This document shows positions 18,937 through 42,756 of a DNA stretch of 64,000 nt, one piece after another (position 1 is the first letter of the stretch; every line of letters starts with the position of its first letter). The position numbers and the translations under genes are program-made. This stretch comes from Serratia fonticola (GTDB lineage Bacteria > Pseudomonadota > Gammaproteobacteria > Enterobacterales > Enterobacteriaceae), in the NCBI RefSeq assembly GCF_001006005.1, contig NZ_CP011254.1, positions 868,001 through 932,000 on the forward strand, written 5' to 3'. Under the pieces are notes generated by a model. The model ran no database searches. It saw nothing but the letters and a program-made list of their open reading frames with translations, and had not been told where the DNA came from.

Positions 18937-21900
18937 TTAGCGGATGTGGCTAATCAACTCATCCTCCTTTTCTAGCAAGGTAAAGTGACTGGCTGCTATT
19001 TCAAACAGCTGTAGTTGGGCAATGTTTTCAACACCAGCATCAATGTTGTTAAACCGGTATTGTTGATACTCCTCATAACCGATCTCCTCCATCGCCTTAA
19101 ACAACACGATCTGAGTCTGTTTTAATACGGCAGATAGTGGCTGTATATTCAACACCTTATCGCTTACGACAACCGATTCGACATTATGTCTTAAATAATG
19201 TGGGATTTGTAACCGCTCCATCATAGAGTCCAGGTTAAAGGATGACTCATTGCGCTGATAATGATCTTCACTTAACAACCAGGTATCCAGCAGATAGACC
19301 GTGATCTCCTTAACCCCACGCGCTTCTAAATAGGCCGCGATCTCCAGTGCAATCTTCCCGCCCAACGACCAGCCTAATAAGGTGACCGGTTGGCTGACAT
19401 CAAGAATGCGATCGATATGCTCCAGATAATAACGCGCCAACTCATCAAGCCGCTCGATCTTCTGCTCATGATAGAAGTTATATGAATCAACCCCATAACA
19501 GCAGTAACGCTCACTCAGCCTATTGGCCAAGGATTGGTAGACCGAACAGTTCCCCATCCCAGGGTGAACCATAAACATCTGTGGTTTTTGCGTTACCGTA
19601 TTAAATGGCACGATCACCTCAAATGACTTCCCTTGAGCCTGTGCAATGGCTTGCGATAACTCGCTGAGGGTGCGCGCATTGATAATATCAAGCAGACGTA
19701 TTTTAACCCTCAGCACCTGGTTAATCCGGTTGTTCAACCTCATCGCCAGGATGCTGTTGCCGCCCAGCGCAAAGAAGTTATCCTCCATGCTGATTGCCTC
19801 AAAGGAAACTTGCAGCGTATCGGCGAGTAACTCACACAGCGTTTTTTCAACCTTGTTTTCCGGTGCCACATAGGTCACGGAATGGGTTATTTGCGGCTCA
19901 GGTAACAACCTTCTGTTCAACTTACCGTTGGAGGTCACCGGCAGCGCCGTCAAATGAACAAATACGCTAGGCACCATATAATCTGGCAGGGTTTCCCGCA
20001 GATGAGCGCATAGCTTTTCGGTGGAAATTTCCTGCGCGGCAACATAATAAGCCACCAGATATTTATCGTTGCTGCCACGCTCACTGGCGATCACCACCGC
20101 ATGATTAACGTCCGGATAACTGGCCAGGCGCGTTTCGATTTCGCCCAGCTCAATACGGTAACCACGCACTTTAACCTGGAAGTCATTGCGGCCCAGATAT
20201 TGGATATTGCCATCGGCTAAATAGCGAACCACATCGCCGGTTTTATACATCCGGCCATTGTAACCCCGTCCCTTCTCCTCACTGCTCTGGAATGGATTGT
20301 TTAGGAAAGCCTTATCCGTCAATAGCTTATTATTCATGTAACCTCTAGCGACACCGACGCCACCAATGAATAACTCGCCAATTGCCCCCGGTGGAATGGG
20401 TTGCAGTTGTGCATTCAGCACGTAGGCGGAAGTATTGTCGATCGGCTTACCGATTAACACATCCTTGATGGAGCGTGCGTTACAGTCGTAGAACAGCACA
20501 TCCACCGTCGCTTCCGTTGGGCCATACAGATTGTGGATCTGGCAATGCGGCAGTAAGCGCTGGCATTTTCTGACTTCCCCCACGTTTAACGCCTCTCCGC
20601 TGCAAAACAGGTAGTTAAGGCTGCCCAGTTTGGCCTGCAACGCACTCTGCCCTTCCAGGGTTTCAAGGAATGCCGACAGCATTGAAGGGACGAAATGGAG
20701 CGTCGTTACCTGTTGCTGTTCAATCAGTTCTGCCAGATAGACATTATCTTTATAGGCCTCCTGCGAGGCAAAAACGATACAGGCCCCGTACCAGTTAGCC
20801 CAGAACAGCTCCCACACTGAAACATCGAAGGTGTAGTTGGTCTTTTGCAAGATACGATCCTGCGCCGTGATCGGATATTGCTTGTGCATCCAGACAATAC
20901 GGTTGATCACGCTGTGATGCTCTAGCATGACGCCTTTAGGATTGCCCGTGGTGCCGCTGGTATAGATGATGTAAGCCAAATCGCTAGACCGCACCGATGA
21001 AGGCTGGTTTTCACCTGGGTAGCGGGCAATATCGGATGACGTTTCCCGATCGGCGACATCGATAACGGTTCTGCCGGTTGCTGCTAGCGCTGCGGCTTTC
21101 TCGTCGCCAGGATGTGCCGTCAAGATGATATCGATACCGGCGTTGTCCAACATGTAACTGACCCGGTCATCCGGTGCCAGCGGATCCAGTGGAACGTAAG
21201 CGCCCCCCGCCTTGAGAATGGCCAGTATCGCGACCTGCATATGCTCAGAGCGGTTTAAACACAGCGCCACCAGATCGCCAGTGCGGACAGCAAAGCGTTC
21301 TCTCAAGTAAACCGACAAGCGGTTAGCCCGTTCATTCAGCTGCCGATAGGTCAGGCTCACGCCCTCAAACACCAGAGCGATATTCTCTGGAGTCCTTGCT
21401 ACCTGCGCCTCGAACATCCCGTGGATCGTCATCTCCCGTGGGTAGTCGCATTCGGTGCGGTTCCCTTGGAAAATGATTTGCTCGTATTGCGCCGAATCCA
21501 GGTACTGAAGCTCAGCGAGGGAACGCCCCTGGCTGCACAGCGTACCCAGTTGGCGCAGGATATGCTGGTAGGTCGCAATGTAGTTCTGCATCGTTTGCCC
21601 GTTGAACAGGGCCGTCGCATAGTTGAAGACGCCACCGATCGCCTCTTCACTGTCATCCAGCATCACGGTCAAATCGAACTTCGCCGCCCGATACGCCCCT
21701 TCTTGCGCGTCATACTGCTCAAACAGGCTTTCTCCTTCGGTGCGTCCCGCTGCGCCAAACGATTGGAGACTGAACATCACCTGGAATATCGGGTGCCTTG
21801 AACTGTCTTTCTCCGTTTTCAGCACTTCAACCAGCTTCTCGAAAGGCAGATCCTGGTGGGTATGCGCTTCACTGACCTGCTGCCCCGTTTCGCCAATAAA

Positions 21901-24900
21901 TTCTCTGACCGTTTGGCTGACGTCTATCTGCCTTCTCAGGACCAGCGTATTGACGAACAGCCCCATGGTGTCTTCCACCCCCGGGTAATGCCTGCCCGCT
22001 ATCGGCGTCCCCAACACGATATCCTGCTGGTTACTGTAAACGCCCAGCAGCAGGTAATAACCGCTCAGCAGTACCGTGTACAGGCTGACGTTCAACGAGG
22101 CGGCCAATGCCCGCAGTTCGGCACTGGTCGCCGCATCCAGTTGGAAGGTGATATCGTCGCCGCGGTAATCCAATTGCAGTGGGCGCACATGGTCCGTCGG
22201 CAGGTTGAGCGGTTCATGGTCCGCCAGTTGCCCATGCCAGTAGGCCAGTTGCTTGTCCAGCGTGGCCCCTTGCAGGTGTTGGCGCTGCCACAGCGCAAAT
22301 TCCCGGTACTGCACCGCCGGTGCCGGGGGTTCATTGCTGGCCTCTCCGGTGAACACGCGGTAATAGTGCAGTAACTCTTTTAACAGCAGATCTACCGACC
22401 AGCCGTCAAACGCGATGTGGTGAATGACGATGCTGAAGTAGTCTGCTCCCGCCAGCGTATAGCACTGGGCCACAATCGGGCATTCCTGCGCCAGGTCAAA
22501 CACCCGGTGCTGATGCTCGTGCAGCCGTGTATGCAACGCTTGTACGCTGTCACATGTTTCGTGCGATATGCTCAGTGAGAATGTCTCTGCTGGCAGAATA
22601 TGTTGATACCCCTGCCCGTCGTCGTCACACAGGATCAGGGTGCGCAGCACTTCGTGCCGGTCAACCACCTTAATCAGCGCCTGGGCCACTTTCTGCGGAT
22701 CGGTACCGGCCTGCAGCTTGAGCGTAAGTGGGATGTTGTAGGCGTTGCTGCCTTCTTCATAACGGTCGATAAACCACAGGCGCTCCTGGGCAAACGACAG
22801 CCGCTGCTCCTCAGGCCGGGCGATCGACGGTGCCTGGATGACCTGGCAGCCTTGCGCTTCGCCGTCAATAAATGCCGCCAGCGCCCGGATGGATCTCAGG
22901 CGGAACAGGTCAGAGACGTGCACGCTTTTTTCTAACGCGCGGGTCAAACGGCCCACCAGCTTGATCGCCAGAATGCTGTTGCCCCCCAGGCGATAGAAGT
23001 CGTCCAGCACGCTGAGACTGTCCTGCGGGATGGCGAGCAGTTCGGCGAAGACCCCAGCCAGTTGCTGCTCGGTCGCCGTCTCCGGTGCTACCCGATCTGC
23101 CTGCGCCTCAAACGTCGGGACCGGCAAGGCGGCACGATCGACCTTGCCGTTGACGGTCATCGGAAGCGATAGCAGGTGAACCAGGGCCGACGGTACCATG
23201 TAGTCCGGCAGAACCTGTTGCAGATGGTCGCGCAACATCTCCTGTTCCAAGGGCTCCTGTGCGACGTAGTACGCCGTCAGATGGGTATGCCCCGCCGGGT
23301 TCGTGCTCGCCAGGACCAGTGCCTGCTGGATGGCAGGATGGTCGTTCAACCGGGCTTCGATCTCCCCCGGTTCAATACGGAAGCCACGGATTTTAACCTG
23401 GAAGTCATTGCGGCCCAGGTATTCGATGTTACCGTCCGGCAGGTAACGGCCCCGGTCCCCGGTTTTGTAAAGGCGGGCGTTTTCACCACGGCTACGTTCG
23501 GCATCACTGCGGAACGGATTGGCAATAAACGCGTCCGCTGTCGCCTGCGGGTTATTCAGATAGCCGCGCCCAACGCCAGCGCCACCGATATACAGCTCAC
23601 CAATCGCCCCTTGTGGGACGGGGCGCAGATGGCGATCCAGCAGATAAACACAAACGTTGTTGATCGCCTTGCCGATATTGGTATTGGCATCGCCAGGTTG
23701 ATAGATCCGCGCCGTCGCCCAAACGGTGGTTTCGCTAGGCCCGTAACCGTTGATCAACCGGACTCCGGCCTCACAGTAGCGGTCAATCATCGCCGCATCG
23801 AGACACTCCCCACCAACAACCAGCGTGGACAGCTCCAGGAGTTCATTCTGCGCCAGTAACGCCGGAGGAATAAAGGCAAACTCGATGGCGTGATCCCTGA
23901 TATAGGCAGAGAGCGCGATAAAGTCGAGACGTTGGTGTTCTGCCAGAATATGCAGGCAATGGCCATTCAACAAGGCACAGAAGACATCCAGCGCATGGGC
24001 ATCGAAAACATATTCCGAATACCACAGCGTGTTTAGCCTGGCAGCCTGCTCATAGCCCGTAGGCATACCTAGCAGGTCTGACTGCCCTTGCGCCAGGTTG
24101 ATTAACGAGTGATGTTCAATCATCACCCCTTTTGGCCGGCCAGTGGTGCCGCTGGTATAGATGATATAAGCCAAATCGTCTGGCTGGGTGCGTGACTGCA
24201 CGTTGCTGTCATCGATCTGCGCCAGCCTGTTGGCCAGTTGCGGGTTATCAATATCCAGCACAGGGAAACCACAGCCAGCGATGCGTGCACCATAATGCTG
24301 CTGCGTCAGGATCAGCACCGGTTTAACGTCGTCAACCAGCAGGCTCAAGCGCTCCAACGGTGCCTGAGGGCTAATCGGGACATAGGCCGCCCCGGCCTTG
24401 AGCACGGCCAGCATGGCAATGACCATATGGGTCGACTTATCAAAATAGAGGGCAATCGCGCTGTCTGGCTGTATCGCAAAGTTCGCCTGCAGGTAAGCCG
24501 CCAACTGGTTCACCCGCTGATTTAACTCGCGATACGTCAACCGCGTATCCTGATACACCAACGCCAAAGCATCCGGCGTTCTGGCTGCCTGCTCTTCAAA
24601 CATCTGACCGACCCGTTTATGTCGCTCCACGGCAACCTGAACCCGCGGCTGGTTTGCTACCAGCTGCGTATAGTCGTCCTGCGTCAGCAGCGATAACTTC
24701 TGGGGAGCAATGGCCGGGTCCGCGATCAACTGCTGTACGGTGAGCCGTATTCCTTGCAGCACGCCCTCAATGGCCGAGCGGCTGAACAGCTCGCCCGCAT
24801 AGTTGATCTTGAACTCAATCCGCCCATCCTGTTCATACACCATGATGCCCAACGGGTAGTCCAGTTTTTCATCACTGTCCTCAAACTCAAGTTTGAATGG

Positions 24901-27900
24901 GCTCTCGGCGTTCTCGGCAGGCACCGGATAGTTTTCAAACACGAATAGCGAGTTGAACAGACGTACCCCCGCCTTTTGCAGCGTGATCAGGCTGATATTG
25001 CTGTAGCTATTGATGTCATTAATATGAGCCTGCAGGCGTTTGACGTTATCGATGATCGCCTCATCGGTGTGCGCCAGAACCACAGGCAACGTATTGATAT
25101 ATAACCCTACAGATCGCTCTATCTCATCTACCGGCAGATTACGGCCAGACACCGTCATGCCCACAATCGTCACGTCCGCATGGCTATAAAGACTGAGCTG
25201 CTGGTGCCAGCAATACTGCATCAGCGCATTCAACGTCACGCCATGCTGCCGCGAGAGCGCCTTCAGCCCGTGGTAAAGCTCACCAGCCAATGCGGTCGAT
25301 ACCGTCTGGGGATCTTGCAGGTGTTTATATTCACTTAAATTGACGTGTTTCATCTCCGGCTTTAGCAGGCCAGTGAGATTCTCTTGCACCTCCAGGCCAC
25401 TCAGATAGTTTTGCCAGAACTGCTCGGTTTCCTGGCTAACCGTCTGTAGCAATGCCTGTGCCTCCAGATAGCTTTGATCTGCGGCTTGCTCCGGCGCGCT
25501 TCCCTGTTGCAGGGCCAGATAATTTTGGTGCACGTCATTGAGCAAGATCGGCAGGCTCCAGCCGTCCAGAATCGCGTGATGGTTATTAAACAGACAAATA
25601 TAGTGATCGTCCGCGCACTTAACGATATACAGCCGGAATAACCCGCTAGCAGACAAATCGAAATGGGTCTGCTGATCCTGCTCGATGAGTTCAGCCACGG
25701 TGCTTGCTCGTGCACGTTCGTCCTGCTCACTGATATCGATAAACTGCCAACCAAAGGTGCCTTGCTTATCGACAATCTGCACAAACTCTTCCTGCCAGCA
25801 GAATCTTAGCCGCAGCGCCGGATATTTCGCCTGGCTGCATTGCCACGCCCGTTTTAACAGCTCGACATCCAACGCATTGCGATAGTGCCAGACCATTTGC
25901 GTACGGTAGGCGTTGTCGATATCGCCTTGCAGGACGTAATGATAAATAAATCCTTGTTGCAGGCTGTTAGCCGGATAAATCGCCGCAACCTCTTCATCCT
26001 GCTGGAGGCGCGCTAACAATTCACCGGAGACCACACCCTTAACATCAGACTCGGTGAGATAAGAGCGAGATGACCGCTTAAGCTCGTCGATCAACTGGAT
26101 TAACCGCTGGCGATAAGTCGTGGCAAACAGTTCGAGCTGTTCCGGGCTGAGATCCCCTTCGACCAGGAATTGTAATTGGCCATTGAGCACACCGCCGTTC
26201 AGCGCTAAGAAGTCCGTTGTGCGGTTATTCGCTGATAATGCCGACCCCGTAGATTCCTGAACAAACGCCCACTCGCCATCTCGTTCATCGCCATCGAACT
26301 GGCCAAGGTAGTTGAAGGTCACGGCGGGCAATGCCTGCGCATCATAGCCAACCAGCACGCCATAGCCCAAGCCATGGTGAGGAGGGGTTCGTAGCCTGTC
26401 TTTAATCAGCGGTAAATTGCGTACAAGGTCACGCTGCTCAATACGCAGATTGACCGGATACATGCAGGTAAACCAACCGACGGTATTGTTGATATCCACA
26501 TCGTCAAACATCGCCTCTCGGCCATGCCCTTCCAGCAGGACATACTGGCTGTCACCGCCAACCACCTGCGACAACGCATCCGCCAGTACGGTCAGCAGAA
26601 TATCGTTCACCTCGGTGTGATAAACATGATGAAGGTCTCGCAACAGGCAACCGGTGTGCTCTGGCGACAAGCTTATCATCGTACGATTGAGCGTCCCCAC
26701 GCGATGGGCGTCCAAACGCTGGTGCCAGCCGTCCAACTCCGTGGTCAGGTTATCCCAGTAATGCCTCTCATCCCTATGGTTGTTCACGGCAACGGCTGGG
26801 TAGTTTTGCAGTGAGTTGACCCATTGGCGGTAACTCGTGCCTTTCTGGCCCAGGATAGTTTGCGCATCAACCGTCGCATCCAGGTTATCGCCTTGTGCAG
26901 CAAAGAACTGGTAAAGCGTGCGTAAGTCTTGGTTAATAATACGCCAGCTGACCGCATCAATATTGAGATGGTGTACCGCCACATGGATACGCGCAGTCTC
27001 GTCAGCGTAGCCTGCAATATAACCGATATGGAACAGTGGCCCTTCTGCCAGGCAAAAACGGTTCTGCCAGGCCGTCAACTGCGCATCGAGCTGAACGGCT
27101 GTGAAGTCCTGTTGATTGATCGCATCAAATGGCAACGTCGCTATCGTTTGACGGTAGTGGCCGGCAGCGGCATCTTTCGGGTAAACGGCCCGCAAAATAT
27201 CATGGTATTCAACCAGTTTCGCCACGCTCAAACGCAGTAGCTCAACGTTTAACGTGGGCACTTTAACCATAAATGCCTGGTTCCAATGCCCAGCATCAGG
27301 CAATTTCCCTGACTCTACGGCCTGGAAGAACCAGCGCTGGATCGGCGCCAAGGGGAGGTCATCCGCCAGCATGCCCGCCTCTGACTGGATAACCGGCAAA
27401 TTGTCACCCTGACGTTGCAGCAGGTAAGTGCTCAATGCCTTGGCCGTTCTGTGGGCAAAGATGTCTTTCACCGTGAGATGGTGGCCAGATAACTTTTTGA
27501 GTTTGTTCGCCAGTTGGATACTGCTGATACTGTCCCCGCCTAAACGGAAGAAGTCATCGGTGACCCCCACCGCATAATCCTTAAGCTGTAATACCTCCGC
27601 AAATACGCGGCAGATCAGCATTTCACTCTCGTTGGCTGGGGCCACGTAGTTCGCCTCATCCGTTAATATCGGCAGAGGTAAGGCTTTACGATCCAACTTA
27701 TTGTTCATGTTCATCGGCAATGCCGTTAAATGAACAAACGCCGTAGGGATCATATAGGCAGGTAAACGCTGTTGCAGATGCTCAGACAGCACATCTGCTG
27801 GCAATGCGTCTGGCGCAACATAATAGGCCACCAGGTACTTTTGCCCCGAGTCATGCTCCAGTGCCAGTACCACAACCTGTTCAATCTGTGGATATTGGGT

Positions 27901-30900
27901 CAGACAACTTTCGATTTCGGCCAATTCGATCCTGAAGCCACGGATCTTCACCTGGGCATCATTACGCCCAATATAGTCAATCTTACCGTCGTTCAGGTAA
28001 CGGACTAAATCGCCCGTTTTATACAGCCGATCGTGACGTCCTCGAGCTTTATCTTCATCACTTTGCAATGGATTGACGATAAACGCCTGATGAGTCGCCT
28101 CAGGATTATTTAAATAGCCACGACCTACACAGTCACCACTAATATAGAGTTCACCCACGGCACCCGCAGGGAGCGGCCGTAGACAACCGTCCAGAATATA
28201 AGCGTCAGCATTGCCTATTGGCCGGCCAATGATGGTATTGCTATCGCCCGTTTGGTAAACGTTCCTGGTGACAAAGACCGTGGTTTCCGTTGGGCCATAA
28301 CAGTTAACTACTTTTACCCCCTGAGCGCTATAGCGCTCCATCACGCTGCTACTGGCCACCTCCCCTCCCAGGATTAGCGTGGAAAGCCCCAGTGTTTCAT
28401 TGTTATTGAGCAGCGCAGGAGGCACAAAGCCGATATCAATGGCATGTTGTTTAATGTAGGCAGCCAGCGCCGCGAAATTCAAACGTATCTCTTTAGACAA
28501 GACATGTAAGCAATGGCCGGTCAGCAACGGGCTGAACACATCCAGGACATGCGCGTCAAAGGTATAATTTGAATAGAAGAGGTAACTTTTTGTCGTCTCT
28601 CCGGCCTGGCAGATCTCAGTGCCAAAGATACTCCGCTGCGCCTCCACAAGATTGGCGACAGAATGATGCTCAATCATCACCCCTTTAGGGGTTCCCGTCG
28701 TCCCGCTGGTATAGATGACATAAATCAGATTGTCAGGTTTGGTTTGGGTTGCCACATTAACCACCTGGTGGCTGGCAGCCCGCGCTATCAACTCAGGATC
28801 GTCCACGCACAGCAGCGCCGTCTTCTGTGGATCAATCAGCTTGGCCAGCGCCTCTTGCGTGCCCAACTCCGTCAGAATAACGCGGGAATGAATATTTTCT
28901 ATCGTCCAGAGCATTCTCTCCGCGGGCATATCGGGGCTAAGCGGTACATAGGCCGCACCGGCTTTCAATACCGCCAGGATACTCACGATCATGCGCTCCG
29001 ATCTTTCCAGGCAAAGCCCGATCAGATCGTCCGGTTGTAAAACAAACTGCGCTCTCAAATAAGCCGCCAACCGGTTGGCACGTTCATTCAACTGCCGATA
29101 GGTCAGGCTCACCCCCTCAAACACCAGAGCGATATTCTCTGGGGTCCTTGCTACCTGCGCCTCGAACATTTCGTGGATCGTCATCTCCCGTGGGTAGTCG
29201 CATTCGGTGCGGTTCCCCTGGCAGATGATTTGCTCGTATTGCGCCGTATCCAGGTACTGGAGCTCCGCAAGGGAACGCCCCTGACTGCACAGCGTACCCA
29301 GTTGGCGCAGGATATGCCGATAGGTCGCAATGTAGTTCTGCATCGTTTGCCCGTTGAACAGCGCCGTCGCATAGTTGAAGACGCCACCGATCGCCTCTTC
29401 GCTGTCGTCCAGCATCACGGTCAAATCGAACTTCGCTGCCCGATATGCCCCTTCTTGCGCGTCATACTGCTCAAACAGGCTTTCTCCTTCCGTACGTCCT
29501 GTGGCACCAAACGATTGGAGACTGAACATCACCTGGAATATCGGGTGCCTTGAACTGTCTTTCTCCGTCTTCAGGGCTTCAACCAGCTTTTCGAAAGGCA
29601 GATCCTGATGGGTATGCGCTTCACTGACCTGTTGGCCCGTTTCGCCAATAAATTCTCTGACCGTTTGGCTGACGTCTATCTGCCTTCTCAGGACCAGCGT
29701 ATTGACAAACAGGCCCATGGTGTCTTCCACCCCCGGGTAATGCCTGCCCGCTATCGGCGTCCCCAACACGATATCCTGCTGGTTACTGTAAACGCCCAGC
29801 AGCAGGTAATAACCGCTCAGCAGTACCGTGTACAGGCTGACGTTCAACGAGGCGGCCAACGCCCGCAGCTCGGCACTGGTCTCCGCATCCAGCTGGAAGG
29901 TGATATCGTCGCCGCGGTAATCCAATTGCAGTGGACGTACATGGTCCGTCGGCAGGTTGAGCGGTTCATGGTCCGCCAGTTGCCCGTGCCAGTAGGCCAG
30001 TTGCTTGTCCAGCGTGGCCCCCTGCAGGTGTTGGCGCTGCCACAGCGCAAATTCCCGGTACTGCACCGGCGGTGCCGGGAGTTCATTGCTGGCCTCTCCG
30101 GTGAACACGCGGTAATAGTGCAGCAACTCTTTTAGCAGCAGATCTACCGACCAGCCATCAAACGCAATGTGGTGAATAACGATGCTGAAGTAGTGGGCTC
30201 CCGCCAGCGTATAACTGCTGGCTGCAATTGGGCACTCCTGCGCCAGGTCAAATACCCGGTGCTGATGCTCGTGCAGCCGCGCATGCAGCGCTTGCACGCT
30301 GTCGCATATTTCGTGCGGTACGGTCAGTGAGAAGGTCTCTGCTGGCAGGATATATTGATACCCCTGCCCGTCGTCGTCACACAGGATCAGGGTGCGCAGC
30401 GCTTCATGACGCGCGATCACCTTCATCAGGGCCTGGGCCACTTTCTGCGGATCGGTACCGGCCTGCAGCTTGAGCGTAAGTGGGACGTTGTAGGCGTTGC
30501 TGCCTTCTTCATAACGGTCGATAAACCACAGGCGCTCCTGGGCAAACGACAGTCGCTGTTCCTCAGGCCGGGCGATCGACGGTGCCTGGATGACCTGGCA
30601 GCCTTGCGCTTCGCCGTCAATAAATGCCGCCAGCGCCCGGATGGATCTCAGGCGGAACAGGTCAGAGACGTGCACGCTTTTTTCTAACGCGCGGGTCAAA
30701 CGGCCCACCAGCTTGATCGCCAGGATACTGTTGCCCCCCAGGCGATAGAAATCGTCCAGCACGCTGAGGCTGTCCTGCGGGATGGCGAGCAGTTCGGCGA
30801 AGATCTCGGCCAGTTGCTGCTCGGTCGCCGTCTCTGGTGCTACCCGGTCTGCCTGCGCTTCAAACGTGGGGACCGGCAAGGCCGCGCGATCGACCTTGCC

Positions 30901-33900
30901 GTTGACGGTCATCGGTAGCGATAGCAGGTGAACCAGGGCAGACGGCACCATGTAGTCCGGCAGAACCTGTTGCAGATGGGCGCGCAACACATCTTGCTCC
31001 AAGGGGTCCTGCGCGACGTAGTACGCCGTCAGATGGGTATGCCCCGCCGGGTTAGTGCTCGCCAGGACCAGTGCCTGCTGGATGGCAGGATGGTCGATCA
31101 GCCGAGCTTCGATTTCCCCCAGCTCAATACGGAAGCCACGGATTTTAACCTGGAAGTCATTGCGGCCCAGGTATTCGATGTTACCGTCCGGCAGATAACG
31201 GCCTTGATCCCCGGTTTTATAAAGGCGGGCGTTTTCACCACGGCTGCGTTCGGCGTCACTGCGGAACGGATTGGCAATAAACGCGTCCGCTGTCGCCTGC
31301 GGATTATTCAGATAGCCGCGCCCAACGCCAGCGCCACCGATATACAGCTCACCGATGGCCCCCTGTGGGACGGGGCGCAGCTGTTCGTCGAGTATATACA
31401 GCTGGGTATTACTGATTGGCTGACCGATGGGAACAGTGTAATCAAACGCCTGCGTCGCCGTGTTGGTCAAATAGGCCGTAGCGTAGGTTGTCGTTTCCGT
31501 CGGCCCGTAAACATGTACCAACTTGACCTGAGGGTAAAGCGTTCTAAAACGATTAACGTGGTTAACGGACACCTGCTCACCGCCGAACAGCAGGTAGTTC
31601 AACCGCTGCAACCCAGGCAGTTCAGCATCCACCAGCGTATTAAAGAAGGCGGTCGTGGCAAAGAAATTGCTGATCTGACGATCGACAATCAGCTGAGAGA
31701 GACGGTCTAAATCCAGGATATTTGGCTTATCGGCAATCACCAACGCGGCGCCATTTAACAACGCGCCAAAGATGTCATAAATGGAGGCATCAAACTGATA
31801 GCCTGAAATACCAAGAATGCGATCCTGTTCACCGATCTCAACATAGTTGGGATTAATCACCAGCCGGTTCACACAGCGTTGCTCTATCAACGTCCCTTTA
31901 GGGTATCCCGTCGTGCCACTGGTATAAATGACATACGCCAGATCTTCGGGGCCGGTATTGCTGCATGGGTTATCTGTTGCACAGCGCGCCAAACGCGCAG
32001 TGGTATCTGGTGCGTCAAGAGGGATAAGCATGGCGCCGGGTGCCATCAGGTCTACCCTTTGCAAAGCCTGCCGTTGGCAAAGCACCGCTTTTACCTTGGC
32101 ATCCGCGATAATATAGCCATTGCGCTCATCGGGGGAATCCGGATCCATCGGCACATAGGCCGCGCCCGCTTTCAGTATGGCCAGAATAGCAATGACCAAC
32201 TGCTCACTGCGCTCAAGATAGAGACCCACGAGATCGTTGGCGCGCAGCTGGCAACATTGCTGCAAATAATGCGCTAGCTGGTTCGCCTGTTGATTTAACT
32301 GTGCGTACGTTAACACCACGTCGTTAAATTCTACGGCGACGCTGTCTGGTGAAGCGGCCACGCGAGCTTCAAACAGCGCGGCGAGGGTTTTATCCTGCTC
32401 GTAGGGCCTGCGGGTATCATTCCACTGGTGGATCATCGTTTGATACTGCGCTGCCTGTAGATAAGGCAACTCGGTTTGAGACTGAGAGGCACCCTGAACA
32501 ATATTTTCTACCAACGTTCTCATCGTGTTCAGCAGCTGTTCGATCAGCACGTCGTCAAACAGTTCACCGGCATAGTGCAGGCTCAATGCCAGGTGCTGCT
32601 GTTCCAGCACGGTCACTACCAACGGATAATCTTGTTTCTCGTTAGCGCTGGCAAAACGTAGCCGTAAATCGCTATCGATATCCCCACTGGGCATCGGGTA
32701 GTTTTCATAGACAAACAAAGAGTTAAACAGGCGTTTTCCTGCCGGTTGTAGCTGAGCCAGATTGACATGGCTGCGGGTATTCGCCTCGTTGATCGCGTCC
32801 TGCAGGTTTTGAATAGCCGTGAGGACCGACACAGAAGCCTGATGATCGACGATCAGCGGCAGTGTGTTGATCAATAATCCTACCGTTTGATCAATGCCAT
32901 CCACGGGCAGGTTACGGCCTGAAACCACCGTGCCAACGATGCTGGCCGCATTGCCAGAATAAATACTGAGCACTTTATGCCAGCAATATTGCAATAGCGC
33001 ATTAAGGGTTATCGCGTTCTCGGCGGTGAACGATTTCAGCTGTTGGTAACACGGCTCATCAAACATCAACTGCTGTGTTTTCGACGTTTTAATGTGCTTA
33101 TATTCATTTAACTGAACGTGCTTCGCCTGCCCGCACAGCAAGATATTTAAATCTTCGGGTTCATCCTGTGCTGCCAGATAGTCTCGCCAGTAGGGTAAAT
33201 GCTCGCTTTTGTGCGACTGTATATAGCGCTGAACCTGGTGGAAACCGTGGTCACATGCCTGCGGCAATGTGTCACCACGCAACAACGCCAGATAGAATTT
33301 ATGCACCGCTTCAATCAGCAGCGGGTTACTCCAGCCATCCATGATGGCGTGGTGGCAGCTGAAAATGCAGCGGTAACGTTCATCTGCATTTTTGACCACA
33401 TAGACACGGAAGATCCCGCTGATCGACAAGTCATAAGGCCTTGCTCGATCCTGGGCAGATAAATCAGAGAAGAAGGCTTGCTGTTGCTGCTCGCTTTTTC
33501 CGCTGAGATCAAAGAAATGCCAGTTCAGAGCGGCATGGGCATCAACAATCTGTACCAACTCTTCATCCCAATCAAACCGCAGACGGAGCGTTGGATAATG
33601 CTGTTGCGCCTGCAACCACGCCTGCTTCAGACAGTCGATATCCAGCGCATTGTCATAGTCCCAGAACATCTGGGTATGGTAGGCATCGTCGACTTCACCC
33701 TGCGATAACGCGTGGTAAATAAAGCCTTCCTGCAAACTATTGGCCAGATAAACCGACTCCAGCTCGGTATCACGCTGCAGAGCGTCAAGTGTTGCTTGCG
33801 GTATTACCCCGTCAATGTCTCGCGCGGTCAGATAGGTGCGGCTTTCCGCCAGCAAGCGCTCAATAACGCCGGCAATCGCCCCCTGGTAACGGCTCGCCAG

Positions 33901-36900
33901 GTGTTGCAATACGTCATCCGTCAGGTAACCGGAGAGGCGTATTCTCAGTTCCCCGCCAACGACACCACAGTTGACGCTGAGCAGATGCGCTTCGCCATTC
34001 TCATGCGCAACGGTTTGCCCGCTGTTTGTCGGGCTGAAGCACCATCCCTCCTGCTGCACCTCATCAAAGCGCCCTAAATAGTTAAAGCTAACCGGTGGCA
34101 GTTGGTCGGCGTCATACCCCATCAACGGCGCAAATCCAACGCCCCGGCGCGGGATCCCGCCAACGGTCTCTTTGACGGTCACGATCCGTTGACGCCAGTC
34201 CCCCTCGCTGCTCAAGCGGACCGGGTACATAGTGGTCAACCAACCTACCGTACGGTTGATATCGACGCTGATATCGAGCGCTTCTCGGCCATGGCCTTCC
34301 AGCGTCAGGTACTGGGTATGCAGCCCGGTAAACTCATTGAGGATCTCAACAAAGCTGGCTAACAGAAGATCGTTAACCTGGGTATTGAACACATGATGTA
34401 CCCCACCCAACAGATGCTGCGTTAAGGTTTTGTTTAACGATAACTCGCGTTGGCTCAACGATGGCGAGGTGAAAAGCGGCGCTATCCGTTGGCGATAGTC
34501 ACCCAGGCCGCCAATAACAGTACGCCAATAAAGCGTTTCCTCATTGGCTCCCTGATGGTTGGCATAATCCTGTACCTGGGCAGCCCACTGACGATAACTG
34601 GTGGGTTTATCACCTAAAATCTCAACGGGATCGCTAATGCTCGCCGCATTTGCTTCCAGCGCGCGATAAATCCTTTCCAGATCCTGTTTGATGATATGCC
34701 AACTTACCGCATCCATAATCAGGTGATGGAAAGCAAAGTGCAGCTTGGCCCGCGGCGCATTTTCGCTTGTTATATAGCCAATATGGCACAGCTTGCCGCC
34801 AAAGATATCAAACTCACTTTGCCACCGATCAAAGAGCGCGATTTGTTGCTCGGCATCCACGGGGTCATCAATAACCGACAGCGGTATTTCGCCGACGTCT
34901 GATTGGTAGTGCTGGCTGTAACCCCCATTACCGTCACGCGTAAAGACCAGTCTCAGGGCATCATGATAGGCAAATAACAGCGCCAGGCTCTTGTTGAGTA
35001 TGCCAATATCCAACGGGGGAACATCCAGCACAAAGGATTGGTTCCAGTGCTGATAAGCGGCAAAAGTCCCCTGATCGACACGATCGAAGAACCACTGCTG
35101 GATCGGCAGCAACTGTGCAGGGCCGCTCAACATCCCTGACTCGGAGAGATGTTTGATGTAATGTTCATCGCTATCCAGCACGATATTCCGGGCCAGTAAA
35201 CGAACGGTTTTGCAGTCGAAAATCTCTTTGACGCTGGCCGTCCCCTTTAGCCTTTGACGGATCATTCTCACCATCTGAATGGCGCTGATACTGTCGCCGC
35301 CCAGCTTAAAGAAATCGTCATTAACACCGACCTGACCCGGCGCCTGGCCTAATATCTCACCATAGATCTGGCATAGTGCCCTTTCCATCTCATCGGCAGG
35401 AGCGACATAGTCATCCTGCCCGCTCAGATCGGGCAGCGGTAATGCCTTACGGTTTAATTTACCGTTAACCGTCATCGGGAACGCCGTTAAATGAACATAG
35501 GCCAGCGGGATCATATAGTCAGGCAAAGCATCCGCCAGGTGCCCAATGATCTGCTCTTTGTCCACGGCAACATCCGCAACATAGTAGGCAACTAACGACA
35601 GCGCTCCCGTCGGGAGCTTATGTGCAATGACCGCCGATTGGATAATCTGCGGAATTTGCACCAGCTGCATTTCAATTTCGCTTAATTCAATTCTGAAACC
35701 GCGGATCTTCAGCTGGGAGTCTCGCCTGCCGACATACTCAATGTGACCGTCGGCCAAGCGGCGGACAAGATCGCCGGTTTTATACAGCCGTGCCGCTTCA
35801 TTACGCTGCTTTTGCTCGTCGCTCTGGAAGGGGTTGGCGATAAAGGCGCGCTCGGTCTGCTGCGGATCATTCAGATAACCCCGGGCCAGGCCAACGCCAC
35901 TGATATAAAGCTCACCGATCACACCGACGGGGACAGGTGCCAGGTGTTCATCTAAAACATGCACATCAAGATTCAGCAGCGGCAGGCCGATATTGAGGTT
36001 GCTATCGCCATTTTCGTAATAGTGCAACGTCGCACAGACGCTGCTTTCCGTCGGGCCATAGGCATTGATGACCGTGGTTCCCTGCGCACGATAACGTTGC
36101 ATAATCTCACGATTACAAGGTTCACCGGCAACAACCAAAGTAGAGAGCGCTAACAGGGAGTTTTTATCCAATAACGCCGGGGGAATGGTGGCAATATCAA
36201 TGCTGGCATCGGCAATATATGCCGCTAACGCGTCAAAATCCTTGCGCTTATCTTCCAGCAAAATATGTATCACATGGCCATTGGCAATCGCCGTAAAGAG
36301 CTCAGAGACATGAGCATCAAAAACATAGGCGGCATACCAAAGACATTGCTTTACCGACGCCTCGCTAGGTGCCAGGCCAAACGCTTCGCCCTGAACCCGA
36401 GCCAGATTGATTAAGCCCGCGTGTTCGATCATGACGCCTTTTGGCTTACCTGTCGTGCCGCTGGTATAAATAATATAGGCTAACTGCTTCAGATCTATAG
36501 CGATATCAAGGTTCTCTGACTGCTGCTGAGCAACCAGATCGCGCTGAAACTGTAGGTTATCAACGGCAATAATCGGCACCTGCGGCAGCTCTGCAATCTC
36601 ATTCAAATAGCTCACGCTGGCGCTATCGCCCAAGATGGCTTTAGCTTGTGTGTCCTGCAGAATAAAACTTAACCTGTTCCCGGCCTCGCCAGGGTTAAGC
36701 GGAACATAGGCGGCACCAGTTTTGAGTACGGCAAGAATACATACGGGCATTGCTGCCGACTTTTCAAGACACAGGGCGACGAAATCGCCACTCTTAATCC
36801 GCAGTTCACACCTTAGGTAATCAGCCAGACGGTTGGCCTGCTGATTAAGCTGTTGATAGGAAAGTGTTTGATTGCCACAAACAACGGCGTTGCGGGCTGG

Positions 36901-38301
36901 GTAAGTCGCGGCCATACGCTCAAACTGTTCGACAATCGAATGTTGAGGGACTTTAGCGCCAGCGCATACATGCTGGGTGTGGTGTGGCAGCTGCGCAATC
37001 AGCGTGATGGAATTTATTGGCGTGTCTACTTCACCCGCCAGCAGCTTATCGAGCGTATTAATAAACAGATCTTTATAGAGCTCAATAAAATTCTCAACCA
37101 ATGCGGCATCAAGGACGTTGCTATCAAACCTGACGCGATAGTTGATACCACTCGCTAACACCTCCTGTTCAAACAGCAGTTCATTCACCAGGTCGATATG
37201 AAAGTCGTGATTGGCCGACTCATCCACGACGCCGCTAAAATGGGTCTGATGATCGCGCAGGAAAGTTTGGGCAAAAGCGACATCCAGTACGCCGGTGGCC
37301 TCGCCACAAGCCAGGATCTCATGGACAGGTAAATATTTGGCTTTTGTCTGTTTTAATGATTTGTAATAACGATGAACACTGGCAATAACGCTACGGATCG
37401 TCGCATCATCCGCAAAGCGATAATCGATGGCCAAGGTATTGATATGCGCGCCATACAACAGATCCTTACCTTCAGAGATCGCCACCGGGTAAGCGAGCGC
37501 AACGGATTTTTGCCCTGACATTTTGTGTAACAGCAGGGCCATGACCATTTGCCCGAACAGGTAAGTGGTCAACTTATACTTACGCAGTAACAGCTTTACA
37601 CGTCGGCTGATATCTTCATCAAAACCAAACAGTAACTCGCCGATCTGACGCCGGGTTGCAGCGGTTGTAAGCTGGCGGCCCGTTTGTAAAAAGCGTAAAT
37701 CAACGCCTTCAAGATCGCCCAGACGCTCGCGCCAAAACTCACGCATTTGTTCGCCTTTTTCTTGCAGAAGCGTGGCGAAATTATGGCAAAGCTGCTGGTG
37801 CATAACCCCCTGTTCCTGCAGCGATGGCACCTGATAGTCGATGCCATTATAGCGTTTACGCCATTTGTCCCAGATCTCTTCGGTACTGATGCCATCGACA
37901 ACAATATGGTGAAAAATAAACAATGTACGGTATCGCTCTGCCCCAAGAGAAATCAAATGTATCCGTACCAGTGGACCATTTCTTAAGTCAAAGGGGGCAG
38001 AAACTAACGCATAAATTTCTTCATCGGTTAACGGGGTGTCGTGATAGGTGACTAAATTGAAAACGGGCTCTCTCGGTACCCAAAAGGCTCCCTCAGGTCC
38101 GTCATCAATGTTATGACGGGTAATAAAATGCTCGTTAAGCATTTGTTCAAAACTATCGTTATACTTTTTTTTGTCTATTTCGCCAACAATAGTATTGTCG
38201 ATCACAATATTGTAATCACTGCGATCGGGGTCCTGTAGCCACTCATAATAAAAAATTGTCTGGTAGGGGGTGAGCGTTATTCTTTCCATATTATTCGCCA
38301 T
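18937..38301 (-). CDS. Five-module non-ribosomal peptide synthetase with terminal thioesterase
   Basis: A single 6454-residue protein. Domain order with approximate residues: C1 1-437, A1 450-945, T1 965-1040, E1 1055-1500; C2 1505-1960, A2 1965-2470, T2 2485-2560; C3 2580-3030, A3 3045-3545, T3 3555-3625, E3 3645-4085; C4 4100-4550, A4 4565-5065, T4 5075-5140; C5 5165-5620, A5 5630-6130, T5 6150-6215; TE 6225-6454 (GWSLGG). All carrier serines (LGGDS or LGGNS) and the HHxxxDG motifs of C domains are present; E domains show HHxxxDxxSW. C2 and C4, which follow E domains, should be the D-accepting type. Reading the specificity residues by eye gives DASTVAAVCK for A1 (the published Tyr code), DVWHFSLVDK for A5 (the Ser code of EntF), DAYFLGVTYK for A2 (aliphatic, perhaps Ile-like), and unmatched hydrophobic codes for A3 and A4. 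A condensation domain at the very start suggests N-acylation. Predicted product: acyl-D-Tyr-X-D-X-X-Ser, released or cyclised by TE. AAGGAGT precedes the ATG. Confidence 0.93.
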   Translation of the reverse strand: MANNMERITLTPYQTIFYYEWLQDPDRSDYNIVIDNTIVGEIDKKKYNDSFEQMLNEHFITRHNIDDGPEGAFWVPREPVFNLVTYHDTPLTDEEIYALVSAPFDLRNGPLVRIHLISLGAERYRTLFIFHHIVVDGISTEEIWDKWRKRYNGIDYQVPSLQEQGVMHQQLCHNFATLLQEKGEQMREFWRERLGDLEGVDLRFLQTGRQLTTAATRRQIGELLFGFDEDISRRVKLLLRKYKLTTYLFGQMVMALLLHKMSGQKSVALAYPVAISEGKDLLYGAHINTLAIDYRFADDATIRSVIASVHRYYKSLKQTKAKYLPVHEILACGEATGVLDVAFAQTFLRDHQTHFSGVVDESANHDFHIDLVNELLFEQEVLASGINYRVRFDSNVLDAALVENFIELYKDLFINTLDKLLAGEVDTPINSITLIAQLPHHTQHVCAGAKVPQHSIVEQFERMAATYPARNAVVCGNQTLSYQQLNQQANRLADYLRCELRIKSGDFVALCLEKSAAMPVCILAVLKTGAAYVPLNPGEAGNRLSFILQDTQAKAILGDSASVSYLNEIAELPQVPIIAVDNLQFQRDLVAQQQSENLDIAIDLKQLAYIIYTSGTTGKPKGVMIEHAGLINLARVQGEAFGLAPSEASVKQCLWYAAYVFDAHVSELFTAIANGHVIHILLEDKRKDFDALAAYIADASIDIATIPPALLDKNSLLALSTLVVAGEPCNREIMQRYRAQGTTVINAYGPTESSVCATLHYYENGDSNLNIGLPLLNLDVHVLDEHLAPVPVGVIGELYISGVGLARGYLNDPQQTERAFIANPFQSDEQKQRNEAARLYKTGDLVRRLADGHIEYVGRRDSQLKIRGFRIELSEIEMQLVQIPQIIQSAVIAHKLPTGALSLVAYYVADVAVDKEQIIGHLADALPDYMIPLAYVHLTAFPMTVNGKLNRKALPLPDLSGQDDYVAPADEMERALCQIYGEILGQAPGQVGVNDDFFKLGGDSISAIQMVRMIRQRLKGTASVKEIFDCKTVRLLARNIVLDSDEHYIKHLSESGMLSGPAQLLPIQQWFFDRVDQGTFAAYQHWNQSFVLDVPPLDIGILNKSLALLFAYHDALRLVFTRDGNGGYSQHYQSDVGEIPLSVIDDPVDAEQQIALFDRWQSEFDIFGGKLCHIGYITSENAPRAKLHFAFHHLIMDAVSWHIIKQDLERIYRALEANAASISDPVEILGDKPTSYRQWAAQVQDYANHQGANEETLYWRTVIGGLGDYRQRIAPLFTSPSLSQRELSLNKTLTQHLLGGVHHVFNTQVNDLLLASFVEILNEFTGLHTQYLTLEGHGREALDISVDINRTVGWLTTMYPVRLSSEGDWRQRIVTVKETVGGIPRRGVGFAPLMGYDADQLPPVSFNYLGRFDEVQQEGWCFSPTNSGQTVAHENGEAHLLSVNCGVVGGELRIRLSGYLTDDVLQHLASRYQGAIAGVIERLLAESRTYLTARDIDGVIPQATLDALQRDTELESVYLANSLQEGFIYHALSQGEVDDAYHTQMFWDYDNALDIDCLKQAWLQAQQHYPTLRLRFDWDEELVQIVDAHAALNWHFFDLSGKSEQQQQAFFSDLSAQDRARPYDLSISGIFRVYVVKNADERYRCIFSCHHAIMDGWSNPLLIEAVHKFYLALLRGDTLPQACDHGFHQVQRYIQSHKSEHLPYWRDYLAAQDEPEDLNILLCGQAKHVQLNEYKHIKTSKTQQLMFDEPCYQQLKSFTAENAITLNALLQYCWHKVLSIYSGNAASIVGTVVSGRNLPVDGIDQTVGLLINTLPLIVDHQASVSVLTAIQNLQDAINEANTRSHVNLAQLQPAGKRLFNSLFVYENYPMPSGDIDSDLRLRFASANEKQDYPLVVTVLEQQHLALSLHYAGELFDDVLIEQLLNTMRTLVENIVQGASQSQTELPYLQAAQYQTMIHQWNDTRRPYEQDKTLAALFEARVAASPDSVAVEFNDVVLTYAQLNQQANQLAHYLQQCCQLRANDLVGLYLERSEQLVIAILAILKAGAAYVPMDPDSPDERNGYIIADAKVKAVLCQRQALQRVDLMAPGAMLIPLDAPDTTARLARCATDNPCSNTGPEDLAYVIYTSGTTGYPKGTLIEQRCVNRLVINPNYVEIGEQDRILGISGYQFDASIYDIFGALLNGAALVIADKPNILDLDRLSQLIVDRQISNFFATTAFFNTLVDAELPGLQRLNYLLFGGEQVSVNHVNRFRTLYPQVKLVHVYGPTETTTYATAYLTNTATQAFDYTVPIGQPISNTQLYILDEQLRPVPQGAIGELYIGGAGVGRGYLNNPQATADAFIANPFRSDAERSRGENARLYKTGDQGRYLPDGNIEYLGRNDFQVKIRGFRIELGEIEARLIDHPAIQQALVLASTNPAGHTHLTAYYVAQDPLEQDVLRAHLQQVLPDYMVPSALVHLLSLPMTVNGKVDRAALPVPTFEAQADRVAPETATEQQLAEIFAELLAIPQDSLSVLDDFYRLGGNSILAIKLVGRLTRALEKSVHVSDLFRLRSIRALAAFIDGEAQGCQVIQAPSIARPEEQRLSFAQERLWFIDRYEEGSNAYNVPLTLKLQAGTDPQKVAQALMKVIARHEALRTLILCDDDGQGYQYILPAETFSLTVPHEICDSVQALHARLHEHQHRVFDLAQECPIAASSYTLAGAHYFSIVIHHIAFDGWSVDLLLKELLHYYRVFTGEASNELPAPPVQYREFALWQRQHLQGATLDKQLAYWHGQLADHEPLNLPTDHVRPLQLDYRGDDITFQLDAETSAELRALAASLNVSLYTVLLSGYYLLLGVYSNQQDIVLGTPIAGRHYPGVEDTMGLFVNTLVLRRQIDVSQTVREFIGETGQQVSEAHTHQDLPFEKLVEALKTEKDSSRHPIFQVMFSLQSFGATGRTEGESLFEQYDAQEGAYRAAKFDLTVMLDDSEEAIGGVFNYATALFNGQTMQNYIATYRHILRQLGTLCSQGRSLAELQYLDTAQYEQIICQGNRTECDYPREMTIHEMFEAQVARTPENIALVFEGVSLTYRQLNERANRLAAYLRAQFVLQPDDLIGLCLERSERMIVSILAVLKAGAAYVPLSPDMPAERMLWTIENIHSRVILTELGTQEALAKLIDPQKTALLCVDDPELIARAASHQVVNVATQTKPDNLIYVIYTSGTTGTPKGVMIEHHSVANLVEAQRSIFGTEICQAGETTKSYLFYSNYTFDAHVLDVFSPLLTGHCLHVLSKEIRLNFAALAAYIKQHAIDIGFVPPALLNNNETLGLSTLILGGEVASSSVMERYSAQGVKVVNCYGPTETTVFVTRNVYQTGDSNTIIGRPIGNADAYILDGCLRPLPAGAVGELYISGDCVGRGYLNNPEATHQAFIVNPLQSDEDKARGRHDRLYKTGDLVRYLNDGKIDYIGRNDAQVKIRGFRIELAEIESCLTQYPQIEQVVVLALEHDSGQKYLVAYYVAPDALPADVLSEHLQQRLPAYMIPTAFVHLTALPMNMNNKLDRKALPLPILTDEANYVAPANESEMLICRVFAEVLQLKDYAVGVTDDFFRLGGDSISSIQLANKLKKLSGHHLTVKDIFAHRTAKALSTYLLQRQGDNLPVIQSEAGMLADDLPLAPIQRWFFQAVESGKLPDAGHWNQAFMVKVPTLNVELLRLSVAKLVEYHDILRAVYPKDAAAGHYRQTIATLPFDAINQQDFTAVQLDAQLTAWQNRFCLAEGPLFHIGYIAGYADETARIHVAVHHLNIDAVSWRIINQDLRTLYQFFAAQGDNLDATVDAQTILGQKGTSYRQWVNSLQNYPAVAVNNHRDERHYWDNLTTELDGWHQRLDAHRVGTLNRTMISLSPEHTGCLLRDLHHVYHTEVNDILLTVLADALSQVVGGDSQYVLLEGHGREAMFDDVDINNTVGWFTCMYPVNLRIEQRDLVRNLPLIKDRLRTPPHHGLGYGVLVGYDAQALPAVTFNYLGQFDGDERDGEWAFVQESTGSALSANNRTTDFLALNGGVLNGQLQFLVEGDLSPEQLELFATTYRQRLIQLIDELKRSSRSYLTESDVKGVVSGELLARLQQDEEVAAIYPANSLQQGFIYHYVLQGDIDNAYRTQMVWHYRNALDVELLKRAWQCSQAKYPALRLRFCWQEEFVQIVDKQGTFGWQFIDISEQDERARASTVAELIEQDQQTHFDLSASGLFRLYIVKCADDHYICLFNNHHAILDGWSLPILLNDVHQNYLALQQGSAPEQAADQSYLEAQALLQTVSQETEQFWQNYLSGLEVQENLTGLLKPEMKHVNLSEYKHLQDPQTVSTALAGELYHGLKALSRQHGVTLNALMQYCWHQQLSLYSHADVTIVGMTVSGRNLPVDEIERSVGLYINTLPVVLAHTDEAIIDNVKRLQAHINDINSYSNISLITLQKAGVRLFNSLFVFENYPVPAENAESPFKLEFEDSDEKLDYPLGIMVYEQDGRIEFKINYAGELFSRSAIEGVLQGIRLTVQQLIADPAIAPQKLSLLTQDDYTQLVANQPRVQVAVERHKRVGQMFEEQAARTPDALALVYQDTRLTYRELNQRVNQLAAYLQANFAIQPDSAIALYFDKSTHMVIAMLAVLKAGAAYVPISPQAPLERLSLLVDDVKPVLILTQQHYGARIAGCGFPVLDIDNPQLANRLAQIDDSNVQSRTQPDDLAYIIYTSGTTGRPKGVMIEHHSLINLAQGQSDLLGMPTGYEQAARLNTLWYSEYVFDAHALDVFCALLNGHCLHILAEHQRLDFIALSAYIRDHAIEFAFIPPALLAQNELLELSTLVVGGECLDAAMIDRYCEAGVRLINGYGPSETTVWATARIYQPGDANTNIGKAINNVCVYLLDRHLRPVPQGAIGELYIGGAGVGRGYLNNPQATADAFIANPFRSDAERSRGENARLYKTGDRGRYLPDGNIEYLGRNDFQVKIRGFRIEPGEIEARLNDHPAIQQALVLASTNPAGHTHLTAYYVAQEPLEQEMLRDHLQQVLPDYMVPSALVHLLSLPMTVNGKVDRAALPVPTFEAQADRVAPETATEQQLAGVFAELLAIPQDSLSVLDDFYRLGGNSILAIKLVGRLTRALEKSVHVSDLFRLRSIRALAAFIDGEAQGCQVIQAPSIARPEEQRLSFAQERLWFIDRYEEGSNAYNIPLTLKLQAGTDPQKVAQALIKVVDRHEVLRTLILCDDDGQGYQHILPAETFSLSISHETCDSVQALHTRLHEHQHRVFDLAQECPIVAQCYTLAGADYFSIVIHHIAFDGWSVDLLLKELLHYYRVFTGEASNEPPAPAVQYREFALWQRQHLQGATLDKQLAYWHGQLADHEPLNLPTDHVRPLQLDYRGDDITFQLDAATSAELRALAASLNVSLYTVLLSGYYLLLGVYSNQQDIVLGTPIAGRHYPGVEDTMGLFVNTLVLRRQIDVSQTVREFIGETGQQVSEAHTHQDLPFEKLVEVLKTEKDSSRHPIFQVMFSLQSFGAAGRTEGESLFEQYDAQEGAYRAAKFDLTVMLDDSEEAIGGVFNYATALFNGQTMQNYIATYQHILRQLGTLCSQGRSLAELQYLDSAQYEQIIFQGNRTECDYPREMTIHGMFEAQVARTPENIALVFEGVSLTYRQLNERANRLSVYLRERFAVRTGDLVALCLNRSEHMQVAILAILKAGGAYVPLDPLAPDDRVSYMLDNAGIDIILTAHPGDEKAAALAATGRTVIDVADRETSSDIARYPGENQPSSVRSSDLAYIIYTSGTTGNPKGVMLEHHSVINRIVWMHKQYPITAQDRILQKTNYTFDVSVWELFWANWYGACIVFASQEAYKDNVYLAELIEQQQVTTLHFVPSMLSAFLETLEGQSALQAKLGSLNYLFCSGEALNVGEVRKCQRLLPHCQIHNLYGPTEATVDVLFYDCNARSIKDVLIGKPIDNTSAYVLNAQLQPIPPGAIGELFIGGVGVARGYMNNKLLTDKAFLNNPFQSSEEKGRGYNGRMYKTGDVVRYLADGNIQYLGRNDFQVKVRGYRIELGEIETRLASYPDVNHAVVIASERGSNDKYLVAYYVAAQEISTEKLCAHLRETLPDYMVPSVFVHLTALPVTSNGKLNRRLLPEPQITHSVTYVAPENKVEKTLCELLADTLQVSFEAISMEDNFFALGGNSILAMRLNNRINQVLRVKIRLLDIINARTLSELSQAIAQAQGKSFEVIVPFNTVTQKPQMFMVHPGMGNCSVYQSLANRLSERYCCYGVDSYNFYHEQKIERLDELARYYLEHIDRILDVSQPVTLLGWSLGGKIALEIAAYLEARGVKEITVYLLDTWLLSEDHYQRNESSFNLDSMMERLQIPHYLRHNVESVVVSDKVLNIQPLSAVLKQTQIVLFKAMEEIGYEEYQQYRFNNIDAGVENIAQLQLFEIAASHFTLLEKEDELISHIR
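21320..23628 (-). repeat. NRPS internal long repeat, unit in modules 4-5
   Basis: This stretch encodes the end of A4, T4, C5 and the start of A5. It matches 29072-31380 with a constant offset of 7752 bases and no visible insertions or deletions; differences are scattered single bases. Similarity falls off sharply on both sides, inside A domains, leaving the substrate-binding parts of A2/A4 and A3/A5 different. It is best explained by recent duplication or gene conversion between modules. Confidence 0.85.
29072..31380 (-). repeat. NRPS internal long repeat, unit in modules 2-3
   Basis: Partner of 21320-23628. It encodes the end of A2, T2, C3 and the start of A3. The shared protein text runs from LRPVPQGAIGELYIGG through to LNERANRL. 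Both copies serve the same step type, an L-accepting condensation after a module without epimerisation. Confidence 0.85.
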
Positions 38302-38470
38302 AATTATTTTACTCCTTGAGATATTTTATTTATAAATATTTGGGCTGGCTTGAGCCATAGCACGGCCAACACCGTGAGCATCGACTCACAGCAATAGGTA
38401 TCACCTGAACGTTATTGTGCCGAGGGTTCAGCAGTACTCGCGGATCAGGGTGAAATTAGGGTTTGGCTGA

Positions 38471-42686: not shown

Positions 42687-42700
42687 TGATTGGATTAAAC

Positions 42701-42745: not shown

Positions 42746-42756
42746 GATATCAGTAA

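Follow-up and report, generated by a model that had tools for sequence, protein, structure and literature searches.

We found that four adjoining genes of the window (the whole 64,000-nucleotide stretch of DNA that was analysed) probably form a lipopeptide assembly line, with acyl-D-Tyr-Ile-D-Leu-Val-Ser as the predicted product. The core of the cluster is a single open frame on the minus strand (38301-18937, 6454 aa) that encodes a five-module nonribosomal peptide synthetase (NRPS) with the layout C-A-T-E / C-A-T / C-A-T-E / C-A-T / C-A-T-TE. The C, A, T and TE domains were detected by Pfam search, and an HMM scan with profiles built from the protein's own domains, in which E and C domains were told apart by position and motif, gave the order C1-A1-T1-E1-C2-A2-T2-C3-A3-T3-E3-C4-A4-T4-C5-A5-T5-TE. 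The HHxxxDG motif was intact in all five C domains, TSG and GRxDxQ were present in all five A domains, the LGGxS serine in all five carrier domains and EGHGRE in both E domains, while the TE contained GWSLG together with a candidate Asp and His. Ordered C-A-T modules, intact catalytic motifs and a terminal TE identify the enzyme as a multimodular NRPS, and the original prediction of five intact modules in an unambiguous order was borne out by the Pfam search, the HMM scan and the motifs.

All domains are given here by their positions on the minus strand. The N-terminal condensation domain C1, a putative acyl starter, spans 36982..38271 (aa 11-440; HHIVVDG) and is followed by A1 (35422..36945) and the epimerisation domain E1 (33802..35106; EGHGRE, NRTVGW). 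C2 (32428..33729) and C4 (24658..25959) are DCL domains by position after E and were placed in a 34-row clade consisting of after-E domains, with a support of only 0.387. C3 (29224..30543) and C5 (21472..22791) are LCL domains by position and grouped with other internal C domains in a clade of 30 rows (support 1.0). The other domains are A2 (30862..32403), A3 (27652..29196), E3 (26029..27348; own-domain HMM scan and motif), A4 (23092..24630), A5 (19882..21444) and the TE (18940..19551; GWSLG at aa 6310), whose PF00975 match scored 70.7 bits (cut-off 26.4) over profile positions 2-114 of 226. E1 and E3 agree with the D residues earlier proposed for positions 1 and 3. Against the orthologue of another genome of the genus (G002), dN/dS ranged from 0.087 to 0.207 in all 14 segments compared (T2 to T5 left out; dS near saturation). 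The 90% cluster of the protein comprised 278 sequences, which makes the gene a common one in some sampled lineage.

The neighbouring genes, all on the minus strand as well, were macA (40417..41526; NF008606, 613 bits vs a cut-off of 342), macB (38471..40417; NF007826, 1211 bits vs 966) and a 4'-phosphopantetheinyl transferase (PPTase) gene (18208..18867; PF01648, 46.8 bits vs 25), as had been proposed from the sequence. With MacB above its curated equivalog cut-off and MacA adjoining, the pair was assigned to the MacAB-type exporters. The two mac genes overlap by one base (40417), 169 bp separate macB from the NRPS gene and 69 bp the NRPS from the PPTase gene; promoter-like sites in 38200-42800 were about as frequent as expected (4 vs a shuffle mean of 4.4), with none within the macB-NRPS gap. 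From this arrangement, macA-macB-NRPS-PPTase are likely transcribed as one unit. Among the neighbouring open reading frames scanned we met no PKS, acyl-activating or tailoring gene. The four genes likewise include no MbtH gene; the single MbtH match of this one-contig, 6.0-Mb genome is found at 5963894, next to a C domain (5962443). MbtH is often needed by Tyr A domains. The earlier view of the cluster as self-contained was overstated, given that it has neither an acyl-activating gene nor an MbtH gene. An MrpH-type adhesin gene (42760-43602) borders the cluster, fimbrial ushers are found on either side of it (6970-9537 and 46074-48647), and no tRNA gene was detected within the 64,000 nt.

We re-read the pocket codes from the A-domain alignment, with pocket positions chosen by what we take to be the GrsA numbering. 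The A1 code, DASTVAAVCK, is DAWTVAAVCK with Trp239 replaced by Ser, and the best single-A-domain match of A1 among solved structures was GrsA (335.6 bits). The code DAWTVAAVCK is predicted to select Phe (PMC9866976), the W239S change in GrsA brings an about threefold preference for Tyr over Phe (PMC11355689), and the A5 code DVWHFSLVDK is named as a Ser code (PMC3795760); thus, the A1 and A5 codes support the initial assignment of Tyr to the first and Ser to the last residue. The A2 code, DAYFLGVTYK, is one letter from DAFFLGVTYK, a code predicted as Ile in PMC9866976 and PMC2866473. By whole-chain score, A2 matched LgrA, 8xjz and surfactin synthetase 3 best, the strongest LgrA stretch lying in the second A domain of that protein. 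Searched as strings in open full text, DVWHFSLVDK was found in one paper and DAFFLGVTYK in two, and DASTVAAVCK, DAYFLGVTYK, DALFIGCVFK and DALFVGGVWK in none. The A1, A3 and A5 codes were identical to those of the window in both G002 and Serratia sp. H1w, and those of A2 and A4 were each one letter off.

The alignment also confirmed the codes first read by eye for A3 (DALFIGCVFK) and A4 (DALFVGGVWK), which had been taken as a sign of unusual residues at positions 3 and 4. That neither code was found in open full text speaks for such residues, but we consider them very unlikely: the variable pocket positions are hydrophobic or small, and the four-gene cluster contains no tailoring or precursor gene. 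In addition, the best single stretch among solved A domains was for both the first A domain of LgrA (single-A LgrA constructs 339-340 bits; GrsA 301 and 286), which we take to accept Val. A 2022 survey predicts Ile-Leu-Val as residues 2-4 for a cluster that is very probably this one (PMC9581180). From the near-match code of A2 and the LgrA likeness of A3 and A4, position 2 is most simply Ile, position 3 Leu or Val (A3, Leu/Val-like) and position 4 Val (A4, Val-like), and the peptide is best read as D-Tyr-Ile-D-Leu-Val-Ser, with the middle residues less sure than Tyr and Ser.

The acyl group depends on the reading of C1. In a tree of 771 C and E domains from 123 proteins (the best 120 of 850 homologues, the G002 protein and two H1w pieces), C1 was placed in a clade of 28 domains, all of them N-terminal (support 1.0), and the next domain to join was an internal C domain of protein P0045 (0.684; 0.939 after adding PDB 7c1h, which we take to be the acyl-CoA-using starter domain RzmA-Cs). 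In the tree with 7c1h, this single reference starter joined 12 other N-terminal C domains (0.998) outside the C1 clade, and the C1 clade plus the internal P0045 domain was sister to a large, mainly internal set (0.922). A 60-row maximum-likelihood tree also kept the C1 clade together (100), its branch of 2.83 exceeding every other inner branch printed. In AU tests, the union of the C1 clade with the starters was not rejected (p-AU 0.38), that with LCL domains was rejected (0.033) and that with DCL domains was borderline (0.058). These values come from a quick 60-row tree with long branches, in which 14 of the 28 members of the C1 clade and 11 of the 12 N-terminal domains that accompany 7c1h were represented, and the groups were named once a tree had been seen. 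Chains of PvdL, Txo1, 4zxh and TycC were the best solved-structure matches of C1, and the reference starter 7c1h matched at only E 4e-4 to 5e-4; the structure predicted from five sequences was poor (mean pLDDT 58.4). In the window, C1 keeps the first His of HHxxxDG, a residue that some members of the clade have exchanged, in most cases for Pro. The assignment of C1 to the starter class therefore stood in part: it groups with 27 other N-terminal C domains apart from 7c1h, yet its union with the starters was not rejected. We regard C1 as probably, not provenly, an acyl-loading domain of a separate N-terminal class.

The position of C1 outside the reference starter clade and the lack of an acyl-activating gene in the cluster count against a lipopeptide. 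C1 could instead accept a peptidyl or aryl group in trans from a different NRPS or carrier, or be idle with the peptide starting at free D-Tyr, and the long branch of its clade and the other C-domain genes of the genome, at 3.02-3.03 Mb and 5.96 Mb, would suit a peptide of this kind. We find the absence of a fatty tail unlikely, however, as the C1 match starts at aa 11 and leaves little space for an N-terminal docking part, its HHxxxDG is intact and its dN/dS (vs the G002 orthologue) was 0.137. Moreover, the strictly N-terminal position of the clade, from Serratia and Orbus to Chryseobacterium and Chitinophaga, fits a donor present in all cells.

In the lipopeptide pathway that we favour, the PPTase would arm the five carrier domains, C1 would join an acyl group (acyl-CoA or acyl-ACP from primary metabolism) to Tyr on T1, E1 would turn the Tyr into its D form and C2 would add Ile. 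C3 and A3 would then add an aliphatic residue, probably Leu, to be converted to the D form by E3, C4 a second aliphatic residue, probably Val, and C5 the Ser, after which the TE would release acyl-D-Tyr-Ile-D-Leu-Val-Ser, either as the free acid or, with ring closure by a 3-hydroxyl of its acyl chain, as a lactone, and export would be by MacAB (with TolC). By analogy with known Serratia lipopeptides, the product may act as a surfactant or antimicrobial. A linear product of tauramamide-like form, released by a hydrolytic TE, is a variant of the same pathway that we consider possible, if somewhat doubtful. Against it, stephensiolides are cyclic. Serrawettin W2, a five-residue Serratia lipopeptide, is cyclic too (PMC9581180). 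The variant draws its strength from the tauramamide synthetase of Brevibacillus laterosporus, (C-A-PCP-E)1-(C-A-PCP)2-(C-A-PCP-E)3-(C-A-PCP)4-5-TE, which has the same domain layout and the same acyl-Tyr start and makes a linear acyl-Tyr-Ser-Leu-Trp-Arg peptide, different in residues 2-5; the two were likened by published layout (PMC9581180). The survey, for its part, argued for linearity in the S. fonticola cluster from a missing TE, whereas a TE is present here.

That survey predicts a five-residue cluster of S. fonticola (strain R28; six strains) with Tyr first and Ser last, describes it as a PKS-NRPS hybrid without TE and reports that one S. bockelmannii strain has the same gene but no PKS (PMC9581180). 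Likened by description (five residues, Tyr first, Ser last and most likely the same species), the cluster of the window is very probably the same, and hence very probably already in print as a prediction, contrary to the novelty that the original prediction implied. The window differs from the survey's account in having a TE over the Pfam cut-off and no PKS in the open reading frames scanned, which we read as a difference of annotation; the partial TE match may be why the survey missed the TE. The synthetases of serrawettin W2 (swrA) and stephensiolide (sphA) are likewise single five-module genes with a terminal TE for a lipopentapeptide, but by published layout neither has E domains, swrA being (C-A-PCP)1-5-TE for Leu-Ser-Thr-Phe-X and sphA selecting Thr-Ser-Ser-Val-Ile/Val (PMC9581180). 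Identity with either synthetase was ruled out by the pocket codes together with E1 and E3, in line with the distinction from serrawettin W2 drawn at the outset. Given its known layout and the prior prediction, the cluster belongs to a known kind. A close match to a cluster of known product, which would have spoken against the prediction, was looked for, and among the literature matches listed (Serratia, S. fonticola, Orbus and Entomomonas; mostly title-level) we found no known product and only PMC9581180 naming such a cluster. NRPS clusters are reported in Gilliamella, with no product given in the text available (PMC9598484), and the term macA does not occur in the available main text of PMC5094094.

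We also found a 2.3-kb block that is present twice within the NRPS gene (gene bases 6919-9250 and 14671-17002), with 94.3% identity between the copies. Copy 1 (29053..31383, minus strand) comprises the end of A2, T2, C3 and the start of A3, and copy 2 (21301..23631, minus strand) the end of A4, T4, C5 and the start of A5, while their flanks were only 25-68% alike (40-aa windows). The G002 copies were 97.3% identical to each other, but the window and G002 copies only 82.3-82.6%. In the block tree, the two copies of each genome paired with each other rather than with their positional counterparts (window 1.0, G002 1.0, H1w 0.968), H1w being a weaker case (92.6% within the gene vs 92.5% to the module-4 copy of G002). 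The block edges agree within about ten bases between the window and G002 and enclose the stretch from just behind the A2/A4 pocket up to where the following A domain begins, which leaves the pockets of A2 to A5 outside. In 12 relatives, which are of unknown origin or belong to other genera, the corresponding C domains of one protein were 56.6-71.7% alike, and recent homogenisation was thus seen in this genus only. Judging from these alignments, the block is a case of recent intragenic homogenisation of modules 2-3 with modules 4-5; NRPS domains are known to evolve in concert (PMC4256081). In four Orbus-type proteins, these C domains were closer to each other (63.5-68.0%) than to those of the window (53.0-58.2%), and an older homogenisation is therefore possible.

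The order macA-macB-NRPS-PPTase was kept in G002 and also, across a contig break and with the PPTase match cut by the contig end, in Serratia sp. H1w (G005). At E <= 1e-250, we found one macB match in four of seven genus genomes and two in the other three; the second macB was present in all three genomes with the NRPS and in none of the four without. The cluster macAB had about 88-89% protein identity to the core macAB of the same genome (88.7% for the macB of the window), and the three cluster macB copies formed one clade (0.993) in the genus macB tree, as expected if the core gene was copied into the cluster once. Between G002 and H1w, the cluster macB was 96.1% identical and the core macB only 81.6% (NRPS pieces, 91.7-92.7%); the cluster thus seems to have passed from one species to another. 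In the window, it is flanked by the MrpH side (42757) and by an M24-peptidase-like gene (16766-18157, 463 aa), and in H1w this gene (90%) lies upstream of macA, i.e. on the other side of the cluster. The only other M24-peptidase-like match (E <= 1e-100) in the seven genus genomes was in G003 (49%). For G002, no flank common at DNA level was found in the stretches compared, and an open reading frame upstream of its cluster (L025:1-615) presumably resembles part of an IS3-type transposase, as judged by eye. DNA-level synteny with G001, G003 and G006 extends as far as the end of the MrpH gene.

The distribution of the synthetase is patchy. Close NRPS orthologues (78-100% over C1) were present in three of the seven genus genomes. 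The C1 type (E <= 1e-40) was detected in 7 of 394 genomes drawn from the order, namely the genome under study and six from two genera of one other family, taken to be Orbaceae, one of the six being, by matching position, Orbus hercynius; within the own family, matches came from 2 of the 295 genomes drawn (the own genome and another with 32% identity; the draw evidently missed G002 and G005). Members of the C1 clade include Orbus wheelerorum, O. sturtevantii, Orbus hercynius and Entomomonas asaccharolytica, and Orbus and Entomomonas are gut bacteria. By hand count among the matches listed, 16 of the 28 C1-clade proteins carry DAST[VI]AAVCK in module 1, all 16 with an E domain directly after that module, and 17 of the 28 end in a Ser code and TE in the same frame (for H1w this end lies on a separate contig; six proteins finish with a C domain and some are partial). 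The uncharacterised Orbus NRPSs (P0006, P0008, P0009) and the likewise uncharacterised Entomomonas protein (P0029) share the N-terminal C clade with the window, and the five-module Orbus enzymes also have Tyr-E as their first module and finish with Ser-TE. Across the first 1000 aa, identity was 55-57% for Orbus and 45% for Entomomonas; the Orbus enzymes lack E3, and that of Entomomonas has four modules and no Tyr code. No macAB was found within 10 kb upstream of the gene in Orbus hercynius. We also observed, in one genome (Orbus hercynius by position), two open frames of the family (L062, L068) that measure about 6006 and 4975 aa and are separated by some 50 kb, and a four-module relative of 4960 aa (P0036) that stands for 171 sequences (ena source).

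A wider reading, which we put forward tentatively and still regard as rather doubtful, is that C1 represents a separate acyl-loading C class and defines a lipopeptide family (core acyl-D-Tyr...Ser, or a four-residue form) common to Serratia and to bacteria of the gut (Orbus and another genus of the same family, and Entomomonas). The family would spread horizontally, and its synthetase would have been remade in this genus by recombination that copied T-C units between modules and stopped at the edges of the substrate pockets. The cluster itself is an ordinary, intact and uncharacterised pathway, probably for a lipopeptide, the product of which can be sought directly by mass (acyl plus Tyr, Ile, Leu, Val and Ser). 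The divergent N-terminal C clade common to Orbus and its kin makes the donor specificity of this group of C domains testable, and the homogenised block, as a clear natural example of recombination between modules with edges that exclude the substrate pockets, bears on the choice of cut sites by NRPS engineers.
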